Origin: Candidatus Marinimicrobia bacterium CG08_land_8_20_14_0_20_45_22 | Lineage (GTDB): Bacteria; Fidelibacterota; UBA2242 | Reading direction: 5' to 3' | Length of the DNA stretch: 38,284 bases | NCBI GenBank assembly: GCA_002774355.1 | Contig: PEYN01000123.1 | Span: 1-38,284, forward strand | In this document: positions 27 to 11,656 of the stretch, one piece after another | Numbering within the stretch: the stretch's first letter is position 1 | Layout of the letters: the number at the start of each line of letters is the position of its first letter | Notes under the pieces: generated by a model | The model's database searches: none | Told to the model about the DNA's origin: nothing | The model's input: only the letters and a program-made list of their open reading frames with translations | Position numbers and translations under genes: made by a program

Positions 27-854
27 TTAATAGGCCACATAAACACTCTCCGGGGTGCGGTAACCCAGCGCCATGTGCGGCCGGTTTTGATTGTATATTT
101 TCACTGATTCTTTGACCAATGTCCTAGCAATCTCTTTCGATTGCAGAGTCTCACCTAAACAAAATTCATCTTTCAAGATTCCATTGACCCTTTCCGCTAA
201 AGCATTCTCATAGACATGGTCCTGCTCGGTCATACTGATTCTGATTTTATTCTTTTGCAGTATTTTTATATAGTCTTTGCAACAATACTGGATACCCCGA
301 TCCGAATGGTGGATCAATTCGGACGGCTCTTTGGTTTGGCGTAAAGCCATCTTCAAAGCCCGCAGACTGCCGTCAATCGATAAACTGTTGCTCAGATCAT
401 ATCCCATTATCTTCCGCGAATAATAGTCCGTAATAAGCGCTAAATACTGGAATCCTTCCAGTGTATGAATATAAGTTATATCCGACACATAGACCTGTCC
501 AGGACGTTCAATCCGAATATCTTTGATCAGATTCGGATAATATCGGAACGGATGACGTGAGTCAGTCGTCCGGGTATATCGTTTACGTCTTTGGACTAAC
601 ATTTGGTGTTCCCGTAGTGTCTCAAACAAACGATCTCTACCTACATGAATACCCATCTCGCCTAGCATATAATGCAACTTCCGAACGCCAATCCGCGGTT
701 GCTGATAACGTATTTGACGAACCATCTCAAGAACAGGTGCTTCTGCCTGTTTTCGACACTCCGTTAAGCGCTTATGCCCATAATAGCCCTGACGACTAAT
801 TCCAAACCATTGGCACAATTGATTCGTACTGCATTGCTGATCCCGACGCTTCAC
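27..854 (-). CDS. IS3-family transposase OrfB (DDE integrase)
   Basis: This is the catalytic half of an IS3-family transposase, which cuts and joins the IS ends as the OrfAB fusion. Residues 1-60 hold an HTH_21-like segment (QWFGISRQGYY). The rve integrase core follows, with the DD(35)E triad visible: D125 in YVSDITYI, D185 in HHSDRGIQY and E221 in NALAERVNG. The C-terminal NxxRPHMALGYxTP motif is typical. At 275 aa it is full length. The GTG start overlaps the OrfA stop as GTGA. The OrfB frame is also open upstream to the A_AAA_AAC site at 890-896, so the main product is probably a -1 frameshift fusion with OrfA. No inactivating lesion is visible. Confidence 0.95.
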   Translation of the reverse strand: MKRRDQQCSTNQLCQWFGISRQGYYGHKRLTECRKQAEAPVLEMVRQIRYQQPRIGVRKLHYMLGEMGIHVGRDRLFETLREHQMLVQRRKRYTRTTDSRHPFRYYPNLIKDIRIERPGQVYVSDITYIHTLEGFQYLALITDYYSRKIMGYDLSNSLSIDGSLRALKMALRQTKEPSELIHHSDRGIQYCCKDYIKILQKNKIRISMTEQDHVYENALAERVNGILKDEFCLGETLQSKEIARTLVKESVKIYNQNRPHMALGYRTPESVYVAY

Positions 855-1225
855 TCTTTTACGACCTTTTTCAATTCCTGAGTACCAGAGTTTTTTTTAA
901 AGGATATTCCATAGGTCTCTTCGGCGGCTTCAATCAAGCATTCCAGACAGAATTTGTCCAGATTCGACTTCGCTAAGGCCGCCTCTAACTGGCGCTTCTC
1001 TGCCTCTAACTTCTTGATCTTGTCCACTTCATCTCGCTTCTGTACCATCACGACTTTCCCTATTAAATGATCTTTTCCAAAGTCTTTTATCCAGTTATAG
1101 ATTCCACCCAGACTAATCTCGTAAATTCTACTGGCTTCTGCAATACTCAGTACTCCAGATTCAATCTCTCCTATCACTTTCTGCTTAAATGCATTACTGT
1201 AACGAAAACTTGTCCTGGTTGACAT
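851..1225 (-). CDS. IS3-family transposase OrfA (HTH protein)
   Basis: This small protein binds the IS ends and supplies the N-terminal part of the OrfAB transposase. It carries an HTH_Tnp_1-type helix-turn-helix (FRYSNAFKQKVIGEIESG, then SIAEASRIYEIS and IYNWIKDFG). A charged leucine-zipper-like coiled coil (KIKKLEAEKRQLEAALAKSN) follows and ends in a segment characteristic of the family (LIEAAEETYGISFKKN). I chose the ATG at 1225 because it has a GAGGAG ribosome-binding site. A TTG at 1252 in the same frame would lie inside the terminal repeat. The stop overlaps OrfB by 4 nt, and the A8C run at 890-898 near its 3' end is the likely frameshift site. Confidence 0.92.
   Translation of the reverse strand: MSTRTSFRYSNAFKQKVIGEIESGVLSIAEASRIYEISLGGIYNWIKDFGKDHLIGKVVMVQKRDEVDKIKKLEAEKRQLEAALAKSNLDKFCLECLIEAAEETYGISFKKNSGTQELKKVVKE
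890..896 (-). promoter_or_regulatory. putative -1 frameshift heptamer A_AAA_AAC
   Basis: On the minus strand the OrfA codons read TTT AAA AAA AAC TCT, giving the canonical X_XXY_YYZ heptamer A_AAA_AAC in the correct phase. A -1 slip enters the OrfB frame, which is open from here through the OrfB GTG (encoding LWYSGIEKGRKRVKRRDQ). IS3 elements normally make OrfAB this way. I found no clear downstream stem-loop by eye. Confidence 0.75.
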
Positions 1226-1246
1226 TGCTTTTTTCTCCTCTTCTTT

Positions 1247-1271
1247 TGTCAACCTATTTCAGGACGAGACA
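1247..1271. repeat. IS right terminal inverted repeat
   Basis: Read on the minus strand from 1271, this begins TGTCTCGTCCTGAAATAGG and pairs with the left end at 1-24. The last three sense codons and the stop of the disrupted host reading frame (1259-1627) are supplied by this repeat, which shows that the host gene was cut here. Confidence 0.85.
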
Positions 1272-1627
1272 TTTCTTACAAACTCGTCATCATTCTTTAT
1301 TTTTACAAATATTGAATCTATTCCACCACCGTTTAGAAGAATATCCGTTAGGTCTTCTGGAGTAAGATTTATACCCAAGGAATTTAACAGCTCTCTTGGT
1401 TGAAGCAATTCTTTATATAAATCAAAAATATGCGGAGTTTTCTCAATAAGTCTTAGATACCAGTAAGTTTCAAGGGCTTCAAATTGTGCCTTTCGTAAGT
1501 AAGATAAGGTCTGAGTTTCAGAATTTAGATTGTAGTTGAAAATCTCAGAAATAACAGGATAATCTGAGCTATAATTAGATTTTCTCCATTCAGCAACTTT
1601 TGATTTTAGTATGCTATGCAATGTCAT
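1259..1627 (-). pseudogene. 5' fragment of DEAD/DEAH helicase or type III restriction-like gene, cut by IS
   Basis: The 122-aa frame starts MTLHSILKSKVAEWRKSNY and contains KAQFEALETYWYLRLIEKTPHIFDLYKELL. I recognise this as the N-terminus of a large helicase family protein often annotated as a type III restriction res subunit or DEAD/DEAH-box helicase. Those proteins are many hundreds of residues long, with the ATPase motifs downstream. Here about 118 host codons are followed directly by IS sequence at 1271, which adds VSS and a stop. The rest of the gene would lie beyond the left edge of the window. A GGAGG sequence lies about 10 nt before the ATG. The fragment cannot be catalytic. The family assignment is from memory of the N-terminal motif and is not proven. 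Confidence 0.7.
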
Positions 1628-1867
1628 TATGAATTAGCCTCCAAGTGTTTTGAAACTGCCATTGCGTATAACGCCAAGGTAATTCTTACTTCTCCCGGCT
1701 CTGCAAAACGTACGTAATCTTTTATGAACACACACAATTAGAATATAAATTAATGCTTCAATATATACAAGAAATAGACTTGGCGGATTCTGGGTTTCCT
1801 TGTCTGCCCTAAAATTACGACTTACGCCTCACGATCTCGTCATCGGATATTGGAATAAGGTTGTTTA

Positions 1868-2218
1868 CTGTAACCCTGTTGCCTGTAACCCGTTGCCTGT
1901 CTCCTGTAACCCGTTGCCTGTAACCCGTTGCCTGTAACCCGTTGCCTGTAACCCGTTGCCTGTAACCTGTTTCCTGTAACCCGTTTCCTGTAACCCGTTG
2001 CCTGTAACCTGTTTCCTGTAACCCGTTGCCTGTAAACCCGTTGCCTGTAACCCGCTTCCTGTAACCCGTTGCCTGTAACCCGTTGCCTGTAACCCGTTGC
2101 CTGTAACCCGTTGCCTGTCTCCTGTAACCCGTTGCCTGTAACCCGTTGCCTGTTGCCTGTAACCCGTTGCCTGTCTCCTGTAACCCGTTGCCTGTTGTCT
2201 GTAACCTGTTTCCTGTCT
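1868..2218. repeat. 14-bp minisatellite (TAACCCGTTGCCTG), about 22 units
   Basis: The unit TAACCCGTTGCCTG is repeated head to tail for about 350 bp. Variants include TAACCTGTTTCCTG, TAACCCGTTTCCTG, an inserted TCTCCTG or TTGCCTG, and one unit with an extra A (GTAAACCCG, near 2033). The unit is not a multiple of three and no coding frame runs through it. It occupies most of the 677-bp gap between the IS-disrupted gene and the TonB receptor. At 1628-1867 I see only AT-rich sequence without a gene. At 2219-2304 there are short AATCTCAAATCTCCAATCTT-type repeats just after the receptor stop. It is not a CRISPR array, because there are no unique spacers. Confidence 0.95.
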
Positions 2219-2304
2219 CCGTTATCAGGTTTCGGGCTTGTCCGCCATTGGTAGGTACAATCTCAAATCTCCAATCTTAAATCTTAAATTATCTGAATGA
2301 TACC

Positions 2305-4728
2305 CTATTTAATATCAATAGAAAGACCACCATAATACGTAGTTCCGTACATGGGCGCATACATAAATGCGGCGTCATCTAAATGTCTCTCATCCTGTAC
2401 ATAATTAAAAATATTATCTACACCGGCGTATAATTTGAATTGGCTAAACCGTTTGGAAACATGGGCATTAAACAACATATACGGATCGGTCTTCTTGATT
2501 TTTGACTGACTTCCGACAAGCGGTTCTATGTCCTCATTGTAGTAATCGATATACATGTTGCCCTGATAATCTCCCAAAAATACAAAATTCCAATCTTTCG
2601 GACTATACTCAATCTTCAGGTTACCTGTCGTCATAGGAAAGCGTGGGATATATTTACTAACACTCTCGTATTGACTACCGATCCAATCTTTACGAGCATG
2701 GTCATATTCACCCTGATTGAATGTAAAATCAAGACCAATATCAAGTTTCTTGGTGATATTTGCCATCACCGATAATTCAACCCCCTGAACAAAAGCATTG
2801 TCAATGTTTTTCCATTGATAGTCGTAGCCCAATGCGGCGATGTCTTCTTCGGCATCAGTAAAACCGATTTTATTTTTCAAATTGGTACGGAAAATGTTGG
2901 AGCTGATCCGCACATTTGCCCCATAATAATCAGCTGAAAGATTATAACTCACCGACGTTTCAGGATTCAAGTCGGAAGATTTCCAGATACGCGGCGAACC
3001 ACTGCAAAGATGCAAATCTTCCGAAAACCCATAAGGCGCGCGAAAGCCGGTTCCCACATTGGCTCTTAAAGTAAACTTTTCTGTGAGAGCGTACTTAATC
3101 GCTAAACGGGGATTTAGGCTCGTCTCGCTAAAACTAGTTTTCGGAAACGCCGTGGTTTCAGACACCTGTCTACCGGTAGTATATTCTTCACTGGAATGAT
3201 GATTGTCGATTCTGATACCGGGGACAATGGTGAAAAGATTGCTAATAGCCCATTCGTCCTGTAAAAATGAACCGAATTCGCGGGCTGATTTATTGCCTAC
3301 AGATCTATAAGATTGCCCAAGATACTCGCTTTCGGGATTAACAACAACATACATCCCCGACTCTCCAAGATCGTCGTAATAACCCTGAACGCCAACGAGA
3401 ACATTGTGCTTTTTTATGTGTTTTAAAAATGTAAGCGTGGAAGTATAGGATTTTTCTTGGGCGAGATAAGGCCGCATACCCCGTAAATCAGGTACGCTGT
3501 CGCCATGAGTTGCCATGTAATCACTTAGGTAAGAGTCATTCGTGGCTTCCCGATTATGGTTTACGTAAGCTAGTGAGAAATTCAGCTCTGAACTAGAACC
3601 GATGGGTTTGGTGTAATTCATCTCGGCTTCATAGCGTTCTGTGGTGATACTTTCGGTGCCGTCGGTAAGCGGATTTTTGTAATAATCGTCGGTCATCGTT
3701 CCTCCTTGTCTTTTCTCAAAAACCGATTTCCCTCTGATTACCAGCTTATCGCTGTTGAAAAATGCGTCATTAACAAACAAACTAAAACCGGCATTGGTCA
3801 AGTTGCTGGCAACCCGGTCGGATATGCCATCCTTATTTTTTACCTCTTCGCTAGTAGCGCCTGGACCGGTTTCATCAACCGCATCTCCCGTTACACGTTG
3901 AGCAAATGCAGTAAGACCGATATTCCCTTTTTCGTTCCTTATAGATGACGAAAGATCGTATTGGTTCGTATTGTATTTCCCGAACTGGACGCCAGTCGTT
4001 GCAGATGGAATAAATGAAGGCTCTTTGGTAACGATGTTAATCGCCCCGGCAATGGCACTGCTTCCATATAACGCCGAGCCGGCGCCCTTAACGATTTCAA
4101 TTCTGTCCACATCGGCTGTACTCAACTGCTGGAGACCGTAAACCCCGGCTAATCCCGAATACATTGGTTGCCCGTTAATTAATACCTGAGTATGTTCGGC
4201 GCCAAGTCCCTGCACCCTTACCATCGTGAAATTGCAATACTGGCATTGCTGTTCGACGCGAATTCCGGGAGTGCCTTCCAGTGCCTCGTAAAGATTGACG
4301 GCATTTTTATTCTCTATTTCGTGCACAGTGATAACTTCCGTTCGTACGGGAACATCCTTGATATAATGTTTTGTCCGCGTCCCGGTGACTACCACCCGTT
4401 CAAATTCCAGAACATCTTCATCCAGTTCGAAGAAAAGAATGACAGCCTTCTTTCTTTCCATAATCACCTCTTTTTCCTGCGACTTGTAACCGATTGCCTG
4501 CGCAACGATAGTACATTTTCCCAACGGAAGATTTACCAGCTTGAAATGTCCGCTTGCGTCCGCCGCGGTTCCCAGATTCGTTCCTTTAACCATGACATTG
4601 GTAAAAGGTATATGCTCACCGGTCGATTTTGACTTTACATCTCCAAAAAGCATCGCATCTGTTTTTTCAGCTCCCATGACACTTATATTCAAACAAAAAA
4701 TAAATAGTAAAAATAAAATCTTTTTCAT
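2305..4728 (-). CDS. TonB-dependent outer-membrane receptor with Cys-x-x-Cys plug
   Basis: This is an outer-membrane active transporter driven by TonB. After a signal peptide (residues 1-20) come a carboxypeptidase-regulatory-like domain (about 26-100: LFGDVKSKSTGEHIPFTNV, then GHFKLVNLPLG), a TonB-box-like segment (RVVVTGTR, 111-118) and a plug (about 123-235: NLYEALEGTPGIRVE, then DRIEIVKGAGSALYGSSAIAG). A 22-strand type beta barrel runs to the C-terminus, which ends GGLSIDIK. The plug contains QQCQYCNFTMVRVQGLG with C162 and C165. I have seen this arrangement in Bacteroidetes BtuB/heavy-metal-type receptors. The gene follows the small His-rich membrane protein at 4808 by 79 nt, so a metal or metal-complex substrate is likely. 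Full length at 807 aa. The substrate is inferred only. Confidence 0.93.
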   Translation of the reverse strand: MKKILFLLFIFCLNISVMGAEKTDAMLFGDVKSKSTGEHIPFTNVMVKGTNLGTAADASGHFKLVNLPLGKCTIVAQAIGYKSQEKEVIMERKKAVILFFELDEDVLEFERVVVTGTRTKHYIKDVPVRTEVITVHEIENKNAVNLYEALEGTPGIRVEQQCQYCNFTMVRVQGLGAEHTQVLINGQPMYSGLAGVYGLQQLSTADVDRIEIVKGAGSALYGSSAIAGAINIVTKEPSFIPSATTGVQFGKYNTNQYDLSSSIRNEKGNIGLTAFAQRVTGDAVDETGPGATSEEVKNKDGISDRVASNLTNAGFSLFVNDAFFNSDKLVIRGKSVFEKRQGGTMTDDYYKNPLTDGTESITTERYEAEMNYTKPIGSSSELNFSLAYVNHNREATNDSYLSDYMATHGDSVPDLRGMRPYLAQEKSYTSTLTFLKHIKKHNVLVGVQGYYDDLGESGMYVVVNPESEYLGQSYRSVGNKSAREFGSFLQDEWAISNLFTIVPGIRIDNHHSSEEYTTGRQVSETTAFPKTSFSETSLNPRLAIKYALTEKFTLRANVGTGFRAPYGFSEDLHLCSGSPRIWKSSDLNPETSVSYNLSADYYGANVRISSNIFRTNLKNKIGFTDAEEDIAALGYDYQWKNIDNAFVQGVELSVMANITKKLDIGLDFTFNQGEYDHARKDWIGSQYESVSKYIPRFPMTTGNLKIEYSPKDWNFVFLGDYQGNMYIDYYNEDIEPLVGSQSKIKKTDPYMLFNAHVSKRFSQFKLYAGVDNIFNYVQDERHLDDAAFMYAPMYGTTYYGGLSIDIK

Positions 4729-4807
4729 GATGATTTCCTTTTCTCCTTTAACAATTGGCTCCTTCGTATTTTAATCACAAGATAGTATCAAAACACTGTT
4801 TCCAAGT

Positions 4808-5272
4808 TTACGCTCCACTTTTCACAGGATATAAATCCCGCGACTGATTGAATCCAAATGGATTTGAATGTTTTCTACTTAAAATAAATTGGACAAATTG
4901 GAGCAGAGAAGGCGGACCACGTTTAAGAATATCATTGCGGAATATCCGGGCGGGATGCCACTGAGGCGAGGTATTTGTTTTTAAATCTAGGCTGTGATAT
5001 AGTAAGAAAGCAACTAAAAACACCCTAAATACAAACGACGAGAGAATATTGTAAATAAAAGCAAGATTGATATACTCGCTTTTTGAATGACTATAAATCG
5101 GGAAAGCATTATCGTTTTTGCATTTTTGATAAGGATGCGCATGAACAATAATTTTTCCGCTTTCATCAATATGGAAATGGGTGTAGTAAGAGAATGTGAA
5201 CATTATCCATACGAACGCCAGTAATGTAAATACTGCAATTAAGGTCTTAGTTTTACTTCGAGAAATAATCAT
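4808..5272 (-). CDS. small His-rich membrane protein, probable metal-handling partner of the TonB receptor
   Basis: This 154-aa protein has a membrane segment at about residues 10-29. Next comes a His-rich extracytoplasmic stretch with THFH (31-34), VHAHP (43-47) and YSHS (60-63). A second hydrophobic segment spans about 69-93, and a C-terminal KRGPPSL motif is at 117-123. The pattern H-x-H, G-x-I-I-V-H-A-H-P, H-S-H-S, R-G-P-P resembles small unnamed proteins that I associate with TonB receptors in Bacteroidetes, but I know of no characterised member. Histidine pairs suggest Zn, Cu or Ni binding. It lies directly upstream of the CxxC-plug receptor on the same strand and probably shares its transcript. 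The gene starts at ATG 5272, 8 nt after a weak TGAG. No enzyme motif is visible. Confidence 0.75.
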   Translation of the reverse strand: MIISRSKTKTLIAVFTLLAFVWIMFTFSYYTHFHIDESGKIIVHAHPYQKCKNDNAFPIYSHSKSEYINLAFIYNILSSFVFRVFLVAFLLYHSLDLKTNTSPQWHPARIFRNDILKRGPPSLLQFVQFILSRKHSNPFGFNQSRDLYPVKSGA

Positions 5273-5495: not shown

Positions 5496-5906
5496 TCAGA
5501 GATCTTGTGCGGGTTTTTCCCGATTTTCTCCCAATAATTTTTCGATTTTCTCTAACAAACTATCCGGTTTAACAGGTTTATCTAAGAAAATATCCACCGG
5601 CAAATAATCTCTATCCGGCGCGAATCGATAAGGAACCTGTTTACGTTCGTGGATACAACTCAAAATGATAATCGGTAAATCGGTCAGTTTCAGATTCTCT
5701 CGGATATTTTTAGCGAGTTGAAAGCCTTCAAACGCCGAGGGCATCATAACATCCAACACCACTAAATCGAAAGGTTCTGACTGGACTTTCCGAAAACCCG
5801 CCTCGGGCGTCTGTGCCGTTTCTACTTTGTAGCCATGCTTTTCAAAAAACATGGTCATCACTTCCAGAAAATCGACATCGTCATCAACAAATAATAAACG
5901 GCTCAT
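5496..5906 (-). CDS. stand-alone response-regulator receiver domain
   Basis: This is a 136-aa single-domain receiver of CheY type with no output domain. The acidic pocket is D8-D9-D10 (LLFVDDDVDF). The phospho-acceptor is D52 (LVVLDVMMP), the switch serine is S83 (IILSC) and the conserved lysine is K110 (FLDKPVKP). I chose the ATG at 5906 because AGGAG lies 6 nt upstream. A longer frame to 5978 only re-reads the end of the upstream gene. It starts one base after the stop of the FAD oxidoreductase, so the two are translationally coupled. It may pass phosphate between kinases or act by protein contact. No histidine kinase is present in the window. Confidence 0.9.
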   Translation of the reverse strand: MSRLLFVDDDVDFLEVMTMFFEKHGYKVETAQTPEAGFRKVQSEPFDLVVLDVMMPSAFEGFQLAKNIRENLKLTDLPIIILSCIHERKQVPYRFAPDRDYLPVDIFLDKPVKPDSLLEKIEKLLGENREKPAQDL

Positions 5907-7884: not shown

Positions 7885-9186
7885 CTATCCGCCGTACAGA
7901 ATCTTATGCGAATCGATGCGCGCTTTTTTATTGCCTGAAAACAGCGCCATGACTTTGATCGTGATCCACTCTAATGAAAATATGAAGTCAACCTTTTCCC
8001 ACAATCGCACGATAATGATCCAGATTAGGAAAACGACTGCCATAAAAACGAAAATCTGCGTCGCATCCCATATCAGTAGAGGAATCTGATTAACGTATGA
8101 AACAGCGGCTTTCCAGAATTGCTCGAAAAACAAATAAACGCCGTGCGCCAAAATAGATTCAGTGATATAAATTGTCAGAGAAACAATACTGAAGCGCCGG
8201 ATGGTTAAAGTCTTCTCGATCCGGCGAAGCCGCCGCTCAGGTCGGCAATAGTCATAGTATCCCAGCATCAGGATCGTCGCAAAGGTCATCGCTCCGAGGT
8301 TCATTATCTGGATTATGATTGGAATGTTGTCCGACATGATATTTTCGAACGGATTATCAGCGACAAAAACCCACATGAGAAAGAAAACGAGTGTGACGCC
8401 AAAGAACAACACGGCGGTTTGGCGAATCTTGTGAAATTTTTCGTTGCACTGAATGGCAGAGCCAATAATAGCGCCAACATATCCAAACCCGAGGATTGGG
8501 AAAAAACGGAAGCGTCCCATTGTCATTTTACCAAACACCATCAGCGGCAGTTTCCAGTTGCGTCTGGTCAGTTCGTCGAAGACATGGGGCTTTACGGCAT
8601 GCACGATCGGAGTAAACACAAACCAGATCAACGTGATGATTGCCAGTCCAACATAAATATGCCGAGGTTTTACGACATTCGAATCCGGATCGGCAGACTT
8701 TCTCGATTTCATTTTATTGATGATGAATAAAATGAATGCCGGCACGATAATACCTGTCAAAGCGATGGAATCCAGCGTGTCGGCATAGTAGCGAATCTTG
8801 AAGTTGAAAAGGCTAAAAGTTCCATTCTCGAACATGCCACCTGAGAAAATGAACACGGTTAACCGACTGATCAATATCAGCAAGACGGCGGATAAAACCC
8901 TTCTAAGAATGTAAGCAGAACTTTGATTCGGGTCCCGCCGATACACACGCAGAAAACCGTAAGCGATATTTGCGCCGGTAATCAGGGTAAATATCGGTCC
9001 CCATAACGATAAAACGATCACTGGGGCGAGAAGGAAAATGACCTCTTCTGGAATCGCAGACATCAATGGATCGAAAAGCGACGGATCGTTCTTTCCGATC
9101 TGATAAATCAGAGAATGCATCGGAATCAAAAACAGGATAGCGATGCCTTTGACGATATCAAATGTATAGATTCTCTCCCGATCCAT
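7885..9186 (-). CDS. multi-pass membrane protein, acyltransferase-like (DUF1624/HGSNAT-type N-terminus)
   Basis: This is a 433-aa integral membrane protein with roughly ten hydrophobic segments. The N-terminus YTFDIVKGIAILFLIPMHSLIYQIG resembles the R/K-G-hydrophobic-H motif of the DUF1624, YeiB and acyltransferase-3-like families. In those families the first helix carries a conserved His that accepts or positions an acyl group from the cytoplasmic side. ITGANIAYGF and the basic loops between helices also fit. I chose ATG 9186 because GGGATGGGA precedes it; a longer frame reaches 9243 but adds an unlikely N-terminus. It stands apart, with 621 bp downstream and 346 bp upstream. The substrate is unknown, and the family call is tentative. 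Confidence 0.7.
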   Translation of the reverse strand: MDRERIYTFDIVKGIAILFLIPMHSLIYQIGKNDPSLFDPLMSAIPEEVIFLLAPVIVLSLWGPIFTLITGANIAYGFLRVYRRDPNQSSAYILRRVLSAVLLILISRLTVFIFSGGMFENGTFSLFNFKIRYYADTLDSIALTGIIVPAFILFIINKMKSRKSADPDSNVVKPRHIYVGLAIITLIWFVFTPIVHAVKPHVFDELTRRNWKLPLMVFGKMTMGRFRFFPILGFGYVGAIIGSAIQCNEKFHKIRQTAVLFFGVTLVFFLMWVFVADNPFENIMSDNIPIIIQIMNLGAMTFATILMLGYYDYCRPERRLRRIEKTLTIRRFSIVSLTIYITESILAHGVYLFFEQFWKAAVSYVNQIPLLIWDATQIFVFMAVVFLIWIIIVRLWEKVDFIFSLEWITIKVMALFSGNKKARIDSHKILYGG

Positions 9187-9441
9187 TTCCCATCCCAAAT
9201 TCCGCCCGACTTTATCAAAATTAACCGCGGAGCACGCCGCCACTGCTAGTGGCTGGGTTCAGGTCGCAGAAAATTCCATCAACAACTGTTTTATCCGTCA
9301 TGGGCGGAGAAACTCAATCAAGATTAACCACAGAACACGCGTTATCAACGATGGTAGGATTCAGAGTGAAGAAGCATTTCATCTGGCATTGACACTTTCA
9401 GATTTCAGTCGTCTCTAATCTACGTAATCCAACCGAATCAA

Positions 9442-9456
9442 TCCGCCAGAGGCGGA
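9442..9456. repeat. perfect palindrome TCCGCC-AGA-GGCGGA
   Basis: This is a 6-bp perfect stem with a 3-nt loop in non-coding DNA. Related cores are CGCC-TGC-GGCG (7726-7736) and CGCC-ATC-GGCG (9501-9511). They share the CGCC-N3-GGCG core and all lie between genes. Confidence 0.6.
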
Positions 9457-9497
9457 CAGGCCCAATCGACCTGTCAAACTAATGTCTAAATGACAAA

Positions 9498-9515
9498 CCC
9501 CGCCATCGGCGCGGG
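9498..9515 (-). terminator. possible terminator of the NfeD-slipin operon
   Basis: On the minus strand, CCCGC (9515-9511) pairs with GCGGG (9502-9498) and the stem is followed by GTTTGTCATTT. It starts 17 nt after the slipin stop. The stem is only five pairs and the T-run is short, so intrinsic termination is uncertain. Confidence 0.35.
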
Positions 9516-9532
9516 AACTGACAACTGATGAC

Positions 9533-10300
9533 TTACTTCTGTTCGATTACCTTGTTCTCCATCAACTTAATGAATGGCGTAAACAGATCGATCGGCACCG
9601 GGAAGATGATGGTCGAATTATTTTCCGTAGCGATCTCCCGTAACGTCTGGAGGAAACGCAGTTGAATGGTGACGGGTTGCTTATTCAGTATGTCACCAGC
9701 TTCCAGCAAGCGCGCAGATGCTTGAAATTCGCCTTCGGCATTGATGATTTTGGCGCGGCGCTCGCGTTCGGCTTCTGCCTGCTTGGCCATGGCTCTCTGC
9801 ATTTCCTGCGGCAGGTCGACATGTTTGATCTCGACCTGCGACACTTTGATGCCCCACGGATCGGTGTGTATGTCGAGAATCGTCTGCAGTTCGGCATTGA
9901 TCTTATCCCGGCCGGAAAGCAGATCGTCAAGTTCCTGCTGACCGAGAACGCTTCTGAGCGTTGTTTGGCTCAATTGCGACGTGGCGTACAGATAATCTTC
10001 AACCTCCACGATGGCTTTATTGGGGTCGATGACACGGAAATAGACGACGGCATTGACTTTGACTGATACATTATCCTTCGTTATAATGTCCTGCGCCGGC
10101 ACATCATGCACAACGGTTCGCAGACTAACTTTGATCATCTTATCAATGCCGGGGATGATCAGGAAAATTCCGGGGCCTTTGGCGCCGACCAGACGACCCA
10201 GACGAAAGATGACGCCGCGTTCATATTCCTTGAGAACGCGGATCGCGCTGGAAAGAAACAGCACGATTAAAACGACAATGGTAATGGTGGAAATGGACAT
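9533..10300 (-). CDS. slipin (SPFH/band-7 membrane protein)
   Basis: This is a membrane-anchored SPFH scaffold protein of the slipin/stomatin type. An N-terminal transmembrane segment (about residues 4-21) is followed by the band-7 domain. Visible motifs are [74 protein letters not shown] and [36 protein letters not shown] (a coiled coil). Length 255 aa is typical. ATG 10300 has AAGGAG 6 nt upstream. It follows the NfeD protease by 27 nt. The NfeD-slipin pair is an established conserved gene couple in which NfeD is thought to cut slipin near its C-terminal hydrophobic end. Likely role: membrane microdomain organisation or quality control. Confidence 0.95.
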
Positions 10301-10327
10301 GTTGCACTCCTTTTTTATGTTATCAAC

Positions 10328-11656
10328 TTACGACTCAATCAATATTTTTTCGACTTTCAACGTCATCCGGTCAACCGTCCGAACGACAATGCGGCTTCCT
10401 TTTTCGATCGGTTCGTCCGAAATCGCCTGCCAGTATTCGCCATGCACGGCAACCATTCCGCTCCGAAAAACATCGGTCAGGGCAATGCCAGTTTCTTCGA
10501 GCAAACCTTCTTTCCCCGTCGTCGGTTTCTGCTGGTGTGTTTTAACCGTCAACATCAGCGCGACGATGAAAAACGCCGCTGAGAAAAGTACAATGGGAAT
10601 AATCACAGACAGTGAAATGGAAAACAGCGCCTTCGGCGCATTGGTCACATCAATCAACATCATGGAACCTAACAGCATAGAAATTATTCCTCCGATCGTC
10701 AAAAGTCCGAAACTGACGATCTTTACTTCTAAGATGAATAAAACAATGCCAACGACAATTAACGCCAGTCCGGCATAATTGATCGGCAGAATCTGAAACG
10801 AGAAAAAGGCGAGAATCAGAAAAATCCCACCCAGCACGCCGGGAAAGATCGCGCCCGGATTCGCAAATTCAAAATAAATGCCGTAGAAGCCAAGCATCAA
10901 CAGCAGATAAGCGACGGTCGGGTCGCTGATGATGTCCAGAATTTTCCGCGCGATGCCAAGTGGTCGAACGACGATTGTAGCATCTTTCGTGTGAATCGTC
11001 TTTTTACCAGCGGCGAGTTTGACGGTTTTCCCGTCTAACCATTCCAGCAATTCATCCCTATCTTTGGCAACGAGATCTACGACATGTTTCTTAACCGCTT
11101 CGGTTTCGGTAATCGATACGCTTTTCCGGACGGATTGCTCCAGCCAGTCGGCGTTCCGCCCGCGTTGTTCAGCGATGCTTCGGATAAAAGCAACCGCGTC
11201 ATTGGTCACTTTTTCCATCATCGTTTCCGTTCCGGCTGAATCAGGCTTCTCTCCGCCAAATCCGCCTCCGCCCATCGTGACCGGATGCGCCGCGCCGATG
11301 TTCGTACCGGGCGCCATCGCCGCAAAATGCGCCGATGCCGTGATGAACACGCCCGCCGATGCGGCTTGCGCGCCGCGCGGAAAAACATAAACAACAACGG
11401 GAACTTTGGAGTTCAGGATGTCCTTGATGATGTCGCGCATGGAAGTCATCAATCCGCCGGGCGTATCCATTTGGATGATCATACATTCAGCGTTATCTTC
11501 TTCTGCCTGTAAGATATTATCGTGAATGTAGGATGCGGCGACCGGGTTGATGATGCCATCGAGTTCCAGAACGCGCACTTCGGCGGCTGAAATGGCCTGC
11601 GTTGCCATCACTGCCATCGCCAAACTCAGTATAAGGATTGGGATTTTCTTGACCAT
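10328..11656 (-). CDS. NfeD long form: membrane serine protease with ClpP-like domain
   Basis: This is a 442-aa protein with a signal peptide or first TM (residues 1-25), a ClpP/SppA-like protease domain (about 26-235), several TM helices (about 245-370) and a C-terminal OB-fold NfeD domain (about 385-442). The catalytic dyad is visible as S100 in RGAQAASAGVFI and K149 in MEKVTNDAVAFIRSIAEQRGRN, matching the Ser-Lys pair known for archaeal PH1510. MDTPGGLM (63-70) forms the oxyanion-loop region. The Gly-rich insert TMGGGGFGGE (127-136) is longer than usual. ATG 11656 has AGGA 9 nt upstream. It is the partner of the slipin gene downstream, which is its likely substrate. Confidence 0.95.
   Translation of the reverse strand: MVKKIPILILSLAMAVMATQAISAAEVRVLELDGIINPVAASYIHDNILQAEEDNAECMIIQMDTPGGLMTSMRDIIKDILNSKVPVVVYVFPRGAQAASAGVFITASAHFAAMAPGTNIGAAHPVTMGGGGFGGEKPDSAGTETMMEKVTNDAVAFIRSIAEQRGRNADWLEQSVRKSVSITETEAVKKHVVDLVAKDRDELLEWLDGKTVKLAAGKKTIHTKDATIVVRPLGIARKILDIISDPTVAYLLLMLGFYGIYFEFANPGAIFPGVLGGIFLILAFFSFQILPINYAGLALIVVGIVLFILEVKIVSFGLLTIGGIISMLLGSMMLIDVTNAPKALFSISLSVIIPIVLFSAAFFIVALMLTVKTHQQKPTTGKEGLLEETGIALTDVFRSGMVAVHGEYWQAISDEPIEKGSRIVVRTVDRMTLKVEKILIES

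Follow-up and report, generated by a model that had tools for sequence, protein, structure and literature searches.

The small histidine-rich protein encoded directly upstream of a TonB-dependent receptor (TBDR) gene in the window, the whole stretch of 38,284 nucleotides analysed here, is best explained as a candidate leader that senses metal in cis and stalls its own ribosome, a reading that we consider probable. We computed its family, the shared motifs, their near-fixed spacing, the gene neighbours, the promoter palindromes and the fold statistics, and from these we infer arrest, metal binding, the direction of control and the identity of the metal in the window's organism. The preliminary description had seen in the protein a metal-binding partner of the receptor that hands over, senses or captures a metal. 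The link to metal and the option of sensing are supported, while handing over or capture for this receptor is not, because the same family also precedes genes for RND efflux, ZnuA-type ABC transport and di-haem proteins. The RAPP/RGPP end, the near-fixed spacing and the unconserved tether are together better accounted for by a regulatory nascent chain than by a component of transport. The main clue is the RGPP motif, which had been mentioned in passing as a tail. The features are collected in Table 1.

Table 1 Features of the small gene, its receptor and the adjoining ORF in the window.
Feature	Position	Strand	Basis or remark
Response-regulator receiver ORF upstream of the small gene	5496..5906	(-)	Pfam PF00072
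Small His-rich ORF, candidate metal-sensing arrest leader	4808..5272	(-)	154 aa, ATG start
N-terminal membrane segment, residues 3-30, N-terminus positive	5183..5266	(-)	AlphaFold2 helix 3-30; hydropathy
His sensor H32-x-H34...G39...H44-x-H46-P47, predicted hairpin	5132..5179	(-)	Alignment of 11; AlphaFold2 strands 31-35, 41-45
Loop His/Glu H62...E66	5075..5089	(-)	H62 in 90/90, E66 in 66/90, neither in the search pattern
Tether, residues 67-116, with second hydrophobic segment	4925..5074	(-)	Sequence unconserved, length near-fixed
R118-G-P-P121, predicted arrest motif of RAPP/RGPP type	4910..4921	(-)	Sequence motif
PP codons to receptor ATG, 181 nt	4729..4909	(-)	33 extra codons, stop, 79-nt gap with Shine-Dalgarno-like AAAGGAG
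TonB-dependent receptor (TBDR), 807 aa	2305..4728	(-)	Pfam CarboxypepD_reg_2, Plug and barrel; AlphaFold2 pTM 0.82
Plug motif C162-Q-Y-C165	4234..4245	(-)	Sequence

The histidine motifs, the two hydrophobic segments and the RGPP that had been described for the small protein are all present in the ORF, namely HFH (H32, H34), VHAHP (H44, H46, P47), SHS (H62) and RGPP (118-121). AlphaFold2 predicts helices at residues 3-30 and 64-99 and, at modest confidence (mean pLDDT 75.6, pTM 0.42; residues 41-60 in blocks of 66 and 58), a hairpin behind the first of them that carries four histidines. The histidines are indeed conserved in homologues. Eleven members, the window protein and 10 relatives that a protein search or a profile search had yielded with no motif query, share H32, H34, G39, H44, H46, H62, E66, R118, P120, and P121 without exception, and this conservation shows that the motifs are not chance. 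In a larger set of 90 members, the two loop residues are kept as listed in Table 1 and RxPP in 87, and residue 60 is His in 68, with Tyr in the window copy. A hydropathy above 1.6 ahead of the His motif marks an N-terminal hydrophobic segment in 83/90 members, and the segment preceding RxPP is clearly hydrophobic in 60/90 and not so in 14. No Cys column is conserved in the family, and Cys is altogether lacking from 23 of the 90 members.

A profile search of 245 genomes from the window's phylum gave matches at E < 1e-10 in 12, the window's own genome included. The DNA pattern HxH-x4-G-x2-[VI]-x-H[AS]HP, run on one genome per species, matched at least 119 stretches, and the 80 public loci studied are those among the pattern matches listed. 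All 80 encode the small family, one copy being cut before its end. Their titles name Bacteroidota taxa in all but three cases (two Ignavibacteria/Ignavibacteriales and one 'bacterium'), genus names being taken by us to belong to that phylum. HxH, G, and HxHP were demanded by the query in these loci; H62, E66, and RxPP were not. The set of 90 consists of the 80 pattern loci, the window and nine relatives; it leaves out the weak matches L010-L027 and L045-L048, the off-frame L006 and L008, the cut L040, L042 (protein identical to L057), the copy in L247 and six further copies within genomes already sampled. The locus sample, drawn from the matches listed, is metagenome-rich and phylogenetically uneven, with ORFs called mechanically and starts chosen by rule.

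No Pfam family scored above cut-off for the 17 members scanned, and NCBIfam gave no family for the window protein, the sole member scanned there. PF11162 (DUF2946) matched none of the 17 members and occurred in 0/61 genomes (own and relatives); membership of the DUF2946/CruR family was rejected, as there is no PF11162 match and no conserved CXXC. A profile of 11 members found no sequence match among solved structures, the fold comparison of the small protein gave no match at E <= 0.001, and the plasmid collection held no match. The literature searched contains no account of the small family or of a manganese arrest leader, though members may be present in the supplements of the CutF and RAPP surveys. 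One weak relative (L045 1300-1779 (-), E 7e-5) has HxH, a His-rich stretch and an SRGPP end ahead of a TolC-like ORF, and it may be a distant family member.

RAPP/RGPP motifs are reported to cause the most robust arrest of their kind (Fujiwara et al., PMC12992588). A motif of this kind is found near the C-terminus of 89/90 members (40 RGPP, 39 RAPP, 4 RPPP, 3 RSPP and one each of RDPP, HAPP, and KSPP), the motif region of the ninetieth being cut by the locus end. The RxPP-like motif lies 1-7 residues ahead of the stop in 87/89 members. R[AG]PP is absent from all 348 complete neighbouring ORFs (135,369 aa), only one of which has RxPP within its last 20 residues. The window copy is atypical in that its RGPP is followed by 33 residues after PP. 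Set against the features expected of RAPP/RGPP arrest peptides, the family shows a C-terminal R[A/G]PP, a length of <=154 aa, an N-terminal hydrophobic segment and a same-strand next ORF.

The distance from sensor to motif is nearly fixed. The last loop His lies a median of 57 residues from the final Pro (10-90% range 54-59, n=89), and H32 a median of 87 residues (83-89, n=89). Pairwise identity among 64 non-redundant members is 0.108 in the tether, 0.811 in RxPP and 0.527 in the sensor, the last value being partly owed to the query, which demanded sensor residues. The centre of the second segment lies 31-41 residues from the Pro (middle 80% of 60 clearly hydrophobic members), about the distance at which membrane insertion pulls a nascent chain hardest. 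Fixed spacing alone is no proof, because homologous proteins often keep their length.

The window TBDR starts 79 nt downstream of the small ORF on the same strand, and the two plug cysteines pointed out in the preliminary description are found in it as C162-Q-Y-C165, the receptor itself being confirmed by Pfam. Within the fetched stretches of the window genome, which hold 19 plug-domain matches, only this TBDR has a CxxC and only this one adjoins a small gene. Both cysteines are invariant in 36 aligned receptors, a set selected for CxxC. The receiver ORF upstream of the small gene recurs in G009 (L002) and G011 (L009). In the window's phylum, a TBDR-like ORF follows the small gene in L002-L005, L007, L009, and L040-L044, recognised by eye and confirmed by search for L004. 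Co-occurrence with TBDRs, the proposed module of the preliminary description, extends to the public loci: a next ORF is visible in 76 of the 80 loci listed, and 75 of these ORFs share the strand of the small gene and 67 are TBDRs by profile, against 7 profile matches in 373 other neighbouring ORFs. The plug CxxC is present in 50 of these 67 TBDRs, absent from 16 and cut off in one; 36 are CQNC (35 by script and L113, with a shifted ORF start) and 14 have another CxxC.

The next ORF is not a TBDR in nine of the 76 loci. In L072 and L102, the small gene is followed by OEP, adaptor and CusA/CzcA RND efflux genes, as read from the extended stretches L206 and L207, and the cut locus L099 has an OEP start after the small gene that resembles L072. 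In L050 and L098, an unknown protein of 440-450 aa, ZnuA and two ABC-3-like permeases follow. The small gene precedes a di-haem DHOR in L082, L084, and L109 (Pfam was run on the L082 locus), and in L126 the next ORF is on the opposite strand. Three genomes with non-TBDR contexts (G247, G248, G249) hold a further copy of the small gene ahead of a TBDR-like ORF, judged by eye.

No family occurs in more than three of the 62 same-strand ORFs scanned at -1/-2, where a further 69 ORFs lie on the opposite strand, nor in more than two of the 60 ORFs scanned out of 86 at +2/+3. ORFs with CxPC shorter than 260 aa are absent at -2, -1, +2, and +3 from the 80 loci listed, and a thioredoxin-fold CxPC partner as in Stenotrophomonas was rejected on this ground. 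Several side observations were made. The three TBDRs of L029, L030, and L031 (about 1480-3930), with 46% identity to the window receptor and a CSYC plug, are nearly alike in three genomes from two families. In place of the small gene they are preceded by a different one, which in L029 is DUF4198 by Pfam, and they represent a second metal-receptor arrangement that has perhaps spread laterally. A conserved 110-aa ORF (MKIAIPLTGGKLS.HFGHCEEF), NifX/NifB-like by eye and missing from the window, separates the small gene from a response regulator or transporter in L002, L007, and L009. The 440-450-aa protein between leader and ZnuA/ABC-3 genes (L208, L209, about 8206-10239) has no Pfam or NCBIfam match and is a possible outer-membrane metal porin. 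Within the window, insertion-sequence-like genes lie just downstream of the receptor (27-1252 (-)), with an rve integrase core in 27-854 and no Pfam match for ORF 851-1252 (-), and an NfeD and SPFH/Band 7 protein pair is found at 9533-11656 (-).

The spacer from the stop of the small gene to the first downstream ATG measures 37-426 nt (median 117, n=75), and none of the 75 spacers contains an intrinsic terminator. We simulated a stall by removing the stretch under a ribosome halted at PP and then predicting the openness of the next start. Openness rose by 0.089 in 71 loci versus 0.019 for shuffled spacers, and by a mean of 0.086 in 69 leader pairs versus 0.006 in 104 control pairs formed by other genes in those loci. 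Gains above 0.2 were seen in 13/69 leader pairs versus 2/104 controls (Fisher P = 1.5e-4). The predicted fold effect is carried by a minority of loci, and in the window it is nearly nil (0.47 to 0.51).

Four known systems bear comparison. CruR of Bordetella pertussis precedes a TBDR gene, senses copper by CXXC and needs RAPP, and its spacing matters (Roy et al., PMC9426467). The small family resembles CruR (DUF2946, PF11162) as a small exported leader with a C-terminal RAPP directly before a TBDR gene and with a metal motif at conserved spacing from RAPP (PMC9426467), but the CXXC of CruR binds its signal, copper, 46 residues from RAPP, whereas the small family has no conserved Cys and, in the 17 members scanned, no DUF2946 match. 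Its sensor is probably periplasmic, because the histidines lie about 57-87 residues from PP. CutF of Rhodobacter capsulatus is likewise exported, with a Pro-rich C-terminus and periplasmic metal sensing, and a hairpin over the start of the next gene is counted as a further likeness; it differs in using CxxxC and copper and in a stall that is reportedly prolonged by copper (PMC9973294). The survey of CutF-like proteins includes many Bacteroidota, and its His-only clusters (14, 17) reportedly precede HupE/UreJ genes (PMC9973294). Its filters (<150 aa, PP in the last 15 residues, a signal, a downstream gene within 1 kb; PMC9973294) fit typical members of the small family but not the window protein (154 aa, PP 33 from the end).

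Like the small family, ApdA, ApdP, ApcA and the peptides of the uORF census are small proteins of membrane or secretory type with R[A/G]PP close to their C-terminus. The census reports TBDR-linked uORFs throughout Gram-negatives and, for two Streptomyces peptides, predicts copper sites of His/Cys type (PMC12992588). It differs in defining a class through motif and neighbour, and the sections consulted name no family like the small one and no Mn/Fe link (PMC12992588). The CQNC-type TBDR with pTFP of Stenotrophomonas maltophilia shares the CQNC plug and is under MntR, but its partner is a downstream thioredoxin-fold protein (CAPC; PMC13217887). The window plug is CQYC.

Two palindromes upstream of the small gene bear on the metal. 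TTTAG-N6-CTAAA is found in 9/72 non-redundant promoters versus 0.1 in shuffles, and AATACC-N8-GGTATT in 6/72 versus 0; both are absent from the window. Among six Cytophagales genomes, three of Larkinella/Spirosoma have exactly two copies of the exact TTTAGACNNGTCTAAA, one between MntR-like and Nramp genes and one before the small gene. A fourth genome has one exact copy, at mntR/mntH. With one mismatch allowed, the fifth has an mntR/mntH site and the sixth only sites within ORFs, the totals of 2-6 per genome being not clearly above a reversed-pattern control (1-4). The Nramp ORFs of L217 and L218 reach 650 and 636 bits against an NCBIfam MntH cut-off of 430, the regulators beside the mntH-like genes have MntR as best NCBIfam match, below cut-off, and the mntR/mntH-like pair was identified by eye in L216, L221, and L225. 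Where a genome has both copies, the receptor plug carries CNVC in two cases (L052, L064) and no CxxC in one (L053).

AATACC-N8-GGTATT occurs at 19 sites in six Bacteroidales genomes versus 4 for the control. Among 17 fetched sites, 7 front a small gene and 2 a FeoB-type ORF, 3 fall within ORFs, 1 is elsewhere, 2 separate a divergent SO_0444-type permease/porin-like pair (L239 tested) and 2 adjoin Crp/Fnr-like genes (a weak match in L240, the one tested). The FeoB-type ORF of L236 has FeoB as its best match, the cut ORF scoring just below cut-off, and the small gene and FeoB have the palindrome in common in two Bacteroidales genomes. Loci L235-L248 hold sites of this palindrome. In L003, from the window's order, a DtxR-family gene lies directly upstream of the small gene, and the window genome has two DtxR-type domain proteins adjoining FeoB-like ORFs (FeoB by eye), with no ZnuA match and no Nramp match. 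A TonB-dependent Mn transporter, MnoT, has been described (PMC9334652). The palindrome shared with mntR/mntH, the different one shared with FeoB, the DtxR neighbour, the MntR-regulated CQNC TBDR and MnoT make Mn(II)/Fe(II) the metal most likely sensed, judging from sequence context. The metal evidence is mixed, as ZnuA-type ABC, CusA/CzcA efflux and di-haem contexts occur too, the one-mismatch counts do not clearly exceed their control and the window genome shows no Nramp match. In addition, the mntR/mntH palindrome belongs to genomes whose receptor plugs differ from that of the window, which slightly lowers our confidence in the overall reading.

Zinc, first favoured from the ZnuA contexts, lost ground once the links to MntR/MntH and FeoB emerged and the window genome gave no ZnuA match. 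That the sensed metal is zinc or copper instead of Mn/Fe, an alternative on the metal alone that overlaps the other readings, now appears rather doubtful. His ligands suit Zn, a ZnuA-family ABC system follows in 2 loci, and CusA/CzcA RND genes follow in 2 full loci, with one cut locus beginning alike. The Pfam family of ZnuA, however, includes Mn/Fe-binding proteins too, one palindrome is shared with mntR/mntH in three genomes and the other with FeoB in two, a DtxR-family gene adjoins the small gene in L003, and the CQNC-plug TBDR of Stenotrophomonas is MntR-regulated (PMC13217887).

The five invariant histidines (H32, H34, H44, H46, H62), the sixth that most members keep, the placing of four histidines on the predicted hairpin and the linkage to metal transport genes would suit a membrane-anchored periplasmic metallochaperone or buffer, whose His hairpin takes receptor-imported metal to inner-membrane importers and whose RxPP is a structural or interaction motif. 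We regard this as unlikely, since it leaves unexplained the RAPP/RGPP preference at the extreme C-terminus, the near-fixed spacing with an unconserved tether, the upstream same-strand position in 75/76 loci and the association with efflux as well as uptake. Moreover, the mature RxPP would sit in different compartments, because the segment before it is clearly hydrophobic in 60/90 members and not in 14. The same 60 hydrophobic segments and the sensor identity of 0.527, partly raised by the demands of the query, could also speak for a dual-purpose protein, a stalling leader that would go on to bind metal in the membrane after its release. The nearest precedents, CruR and CutF, are reported as undetected by proteomics or rapidly degraded, and we consider such a mature role highly unlikely.

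The favoured reading, a cis-acting nascent-chain sensor, could operate as follows. The ribosome would translate the small protein into the inner membrane, with the N-terminal helix as the anchor of the chain and the His hairpin coming out into the periplasm. On reaching the terminal R-G/A-P-P, the ribosome can stall, at which point PP would be 73-87 residues away from the hairpin and about 57 from the last loop His. The sensor would be exposed just at the stall decision, because these distances approximate the reach of the ribosome tunnel and translocon. With little metal, the stall may persist and keep the downstream start open, so that the receptor is made; metal on the His cluster may cause the chain to fold or the second hydrophobic segment to insert, pulling the chain free and turning the receptor off. 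The sign of control could be reversed, as is reported for CutF (PMC9973294). The window copy is an outlier, with its 33-residue tail, nearly nil fold effect, lack of palindromes and Tyr60. For the family as a whole, we see about an even chance that unnamed His-based, periplasm-facing nascent-chain sensors of Mn(II)/Fe(II) control receptors for metals in the outer membrane, and in some cases efflux, throughout Bacteroidota and sister phyla, atop MntR-linked or FeoB-shared transcriptional control.

One family of metal-sensing stalling switches seems to run through Bacteroidetes and their relatives. Bacteroidota possess TBDR genes in great number, and for many of these no ligand or regulator is known. 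A recognisable metal-sensor leader would mark which receptors serve metals and give a directly testable readout of the metal. If the reading is true, an arrest-type leader for another transition metal would stand beside the copper leaders CruR and CutF, and the sensing of metal by nascent chains, which published studies have shown for copper in Proteobacteria, would extend to a His-type sensor, probably of Mn/Fe. Many 'hypothetical proteins' ahead of TBDRs would then be reassigned as switches, with the caution that small conserved proteins beside transporters may act in cis and not as partners.
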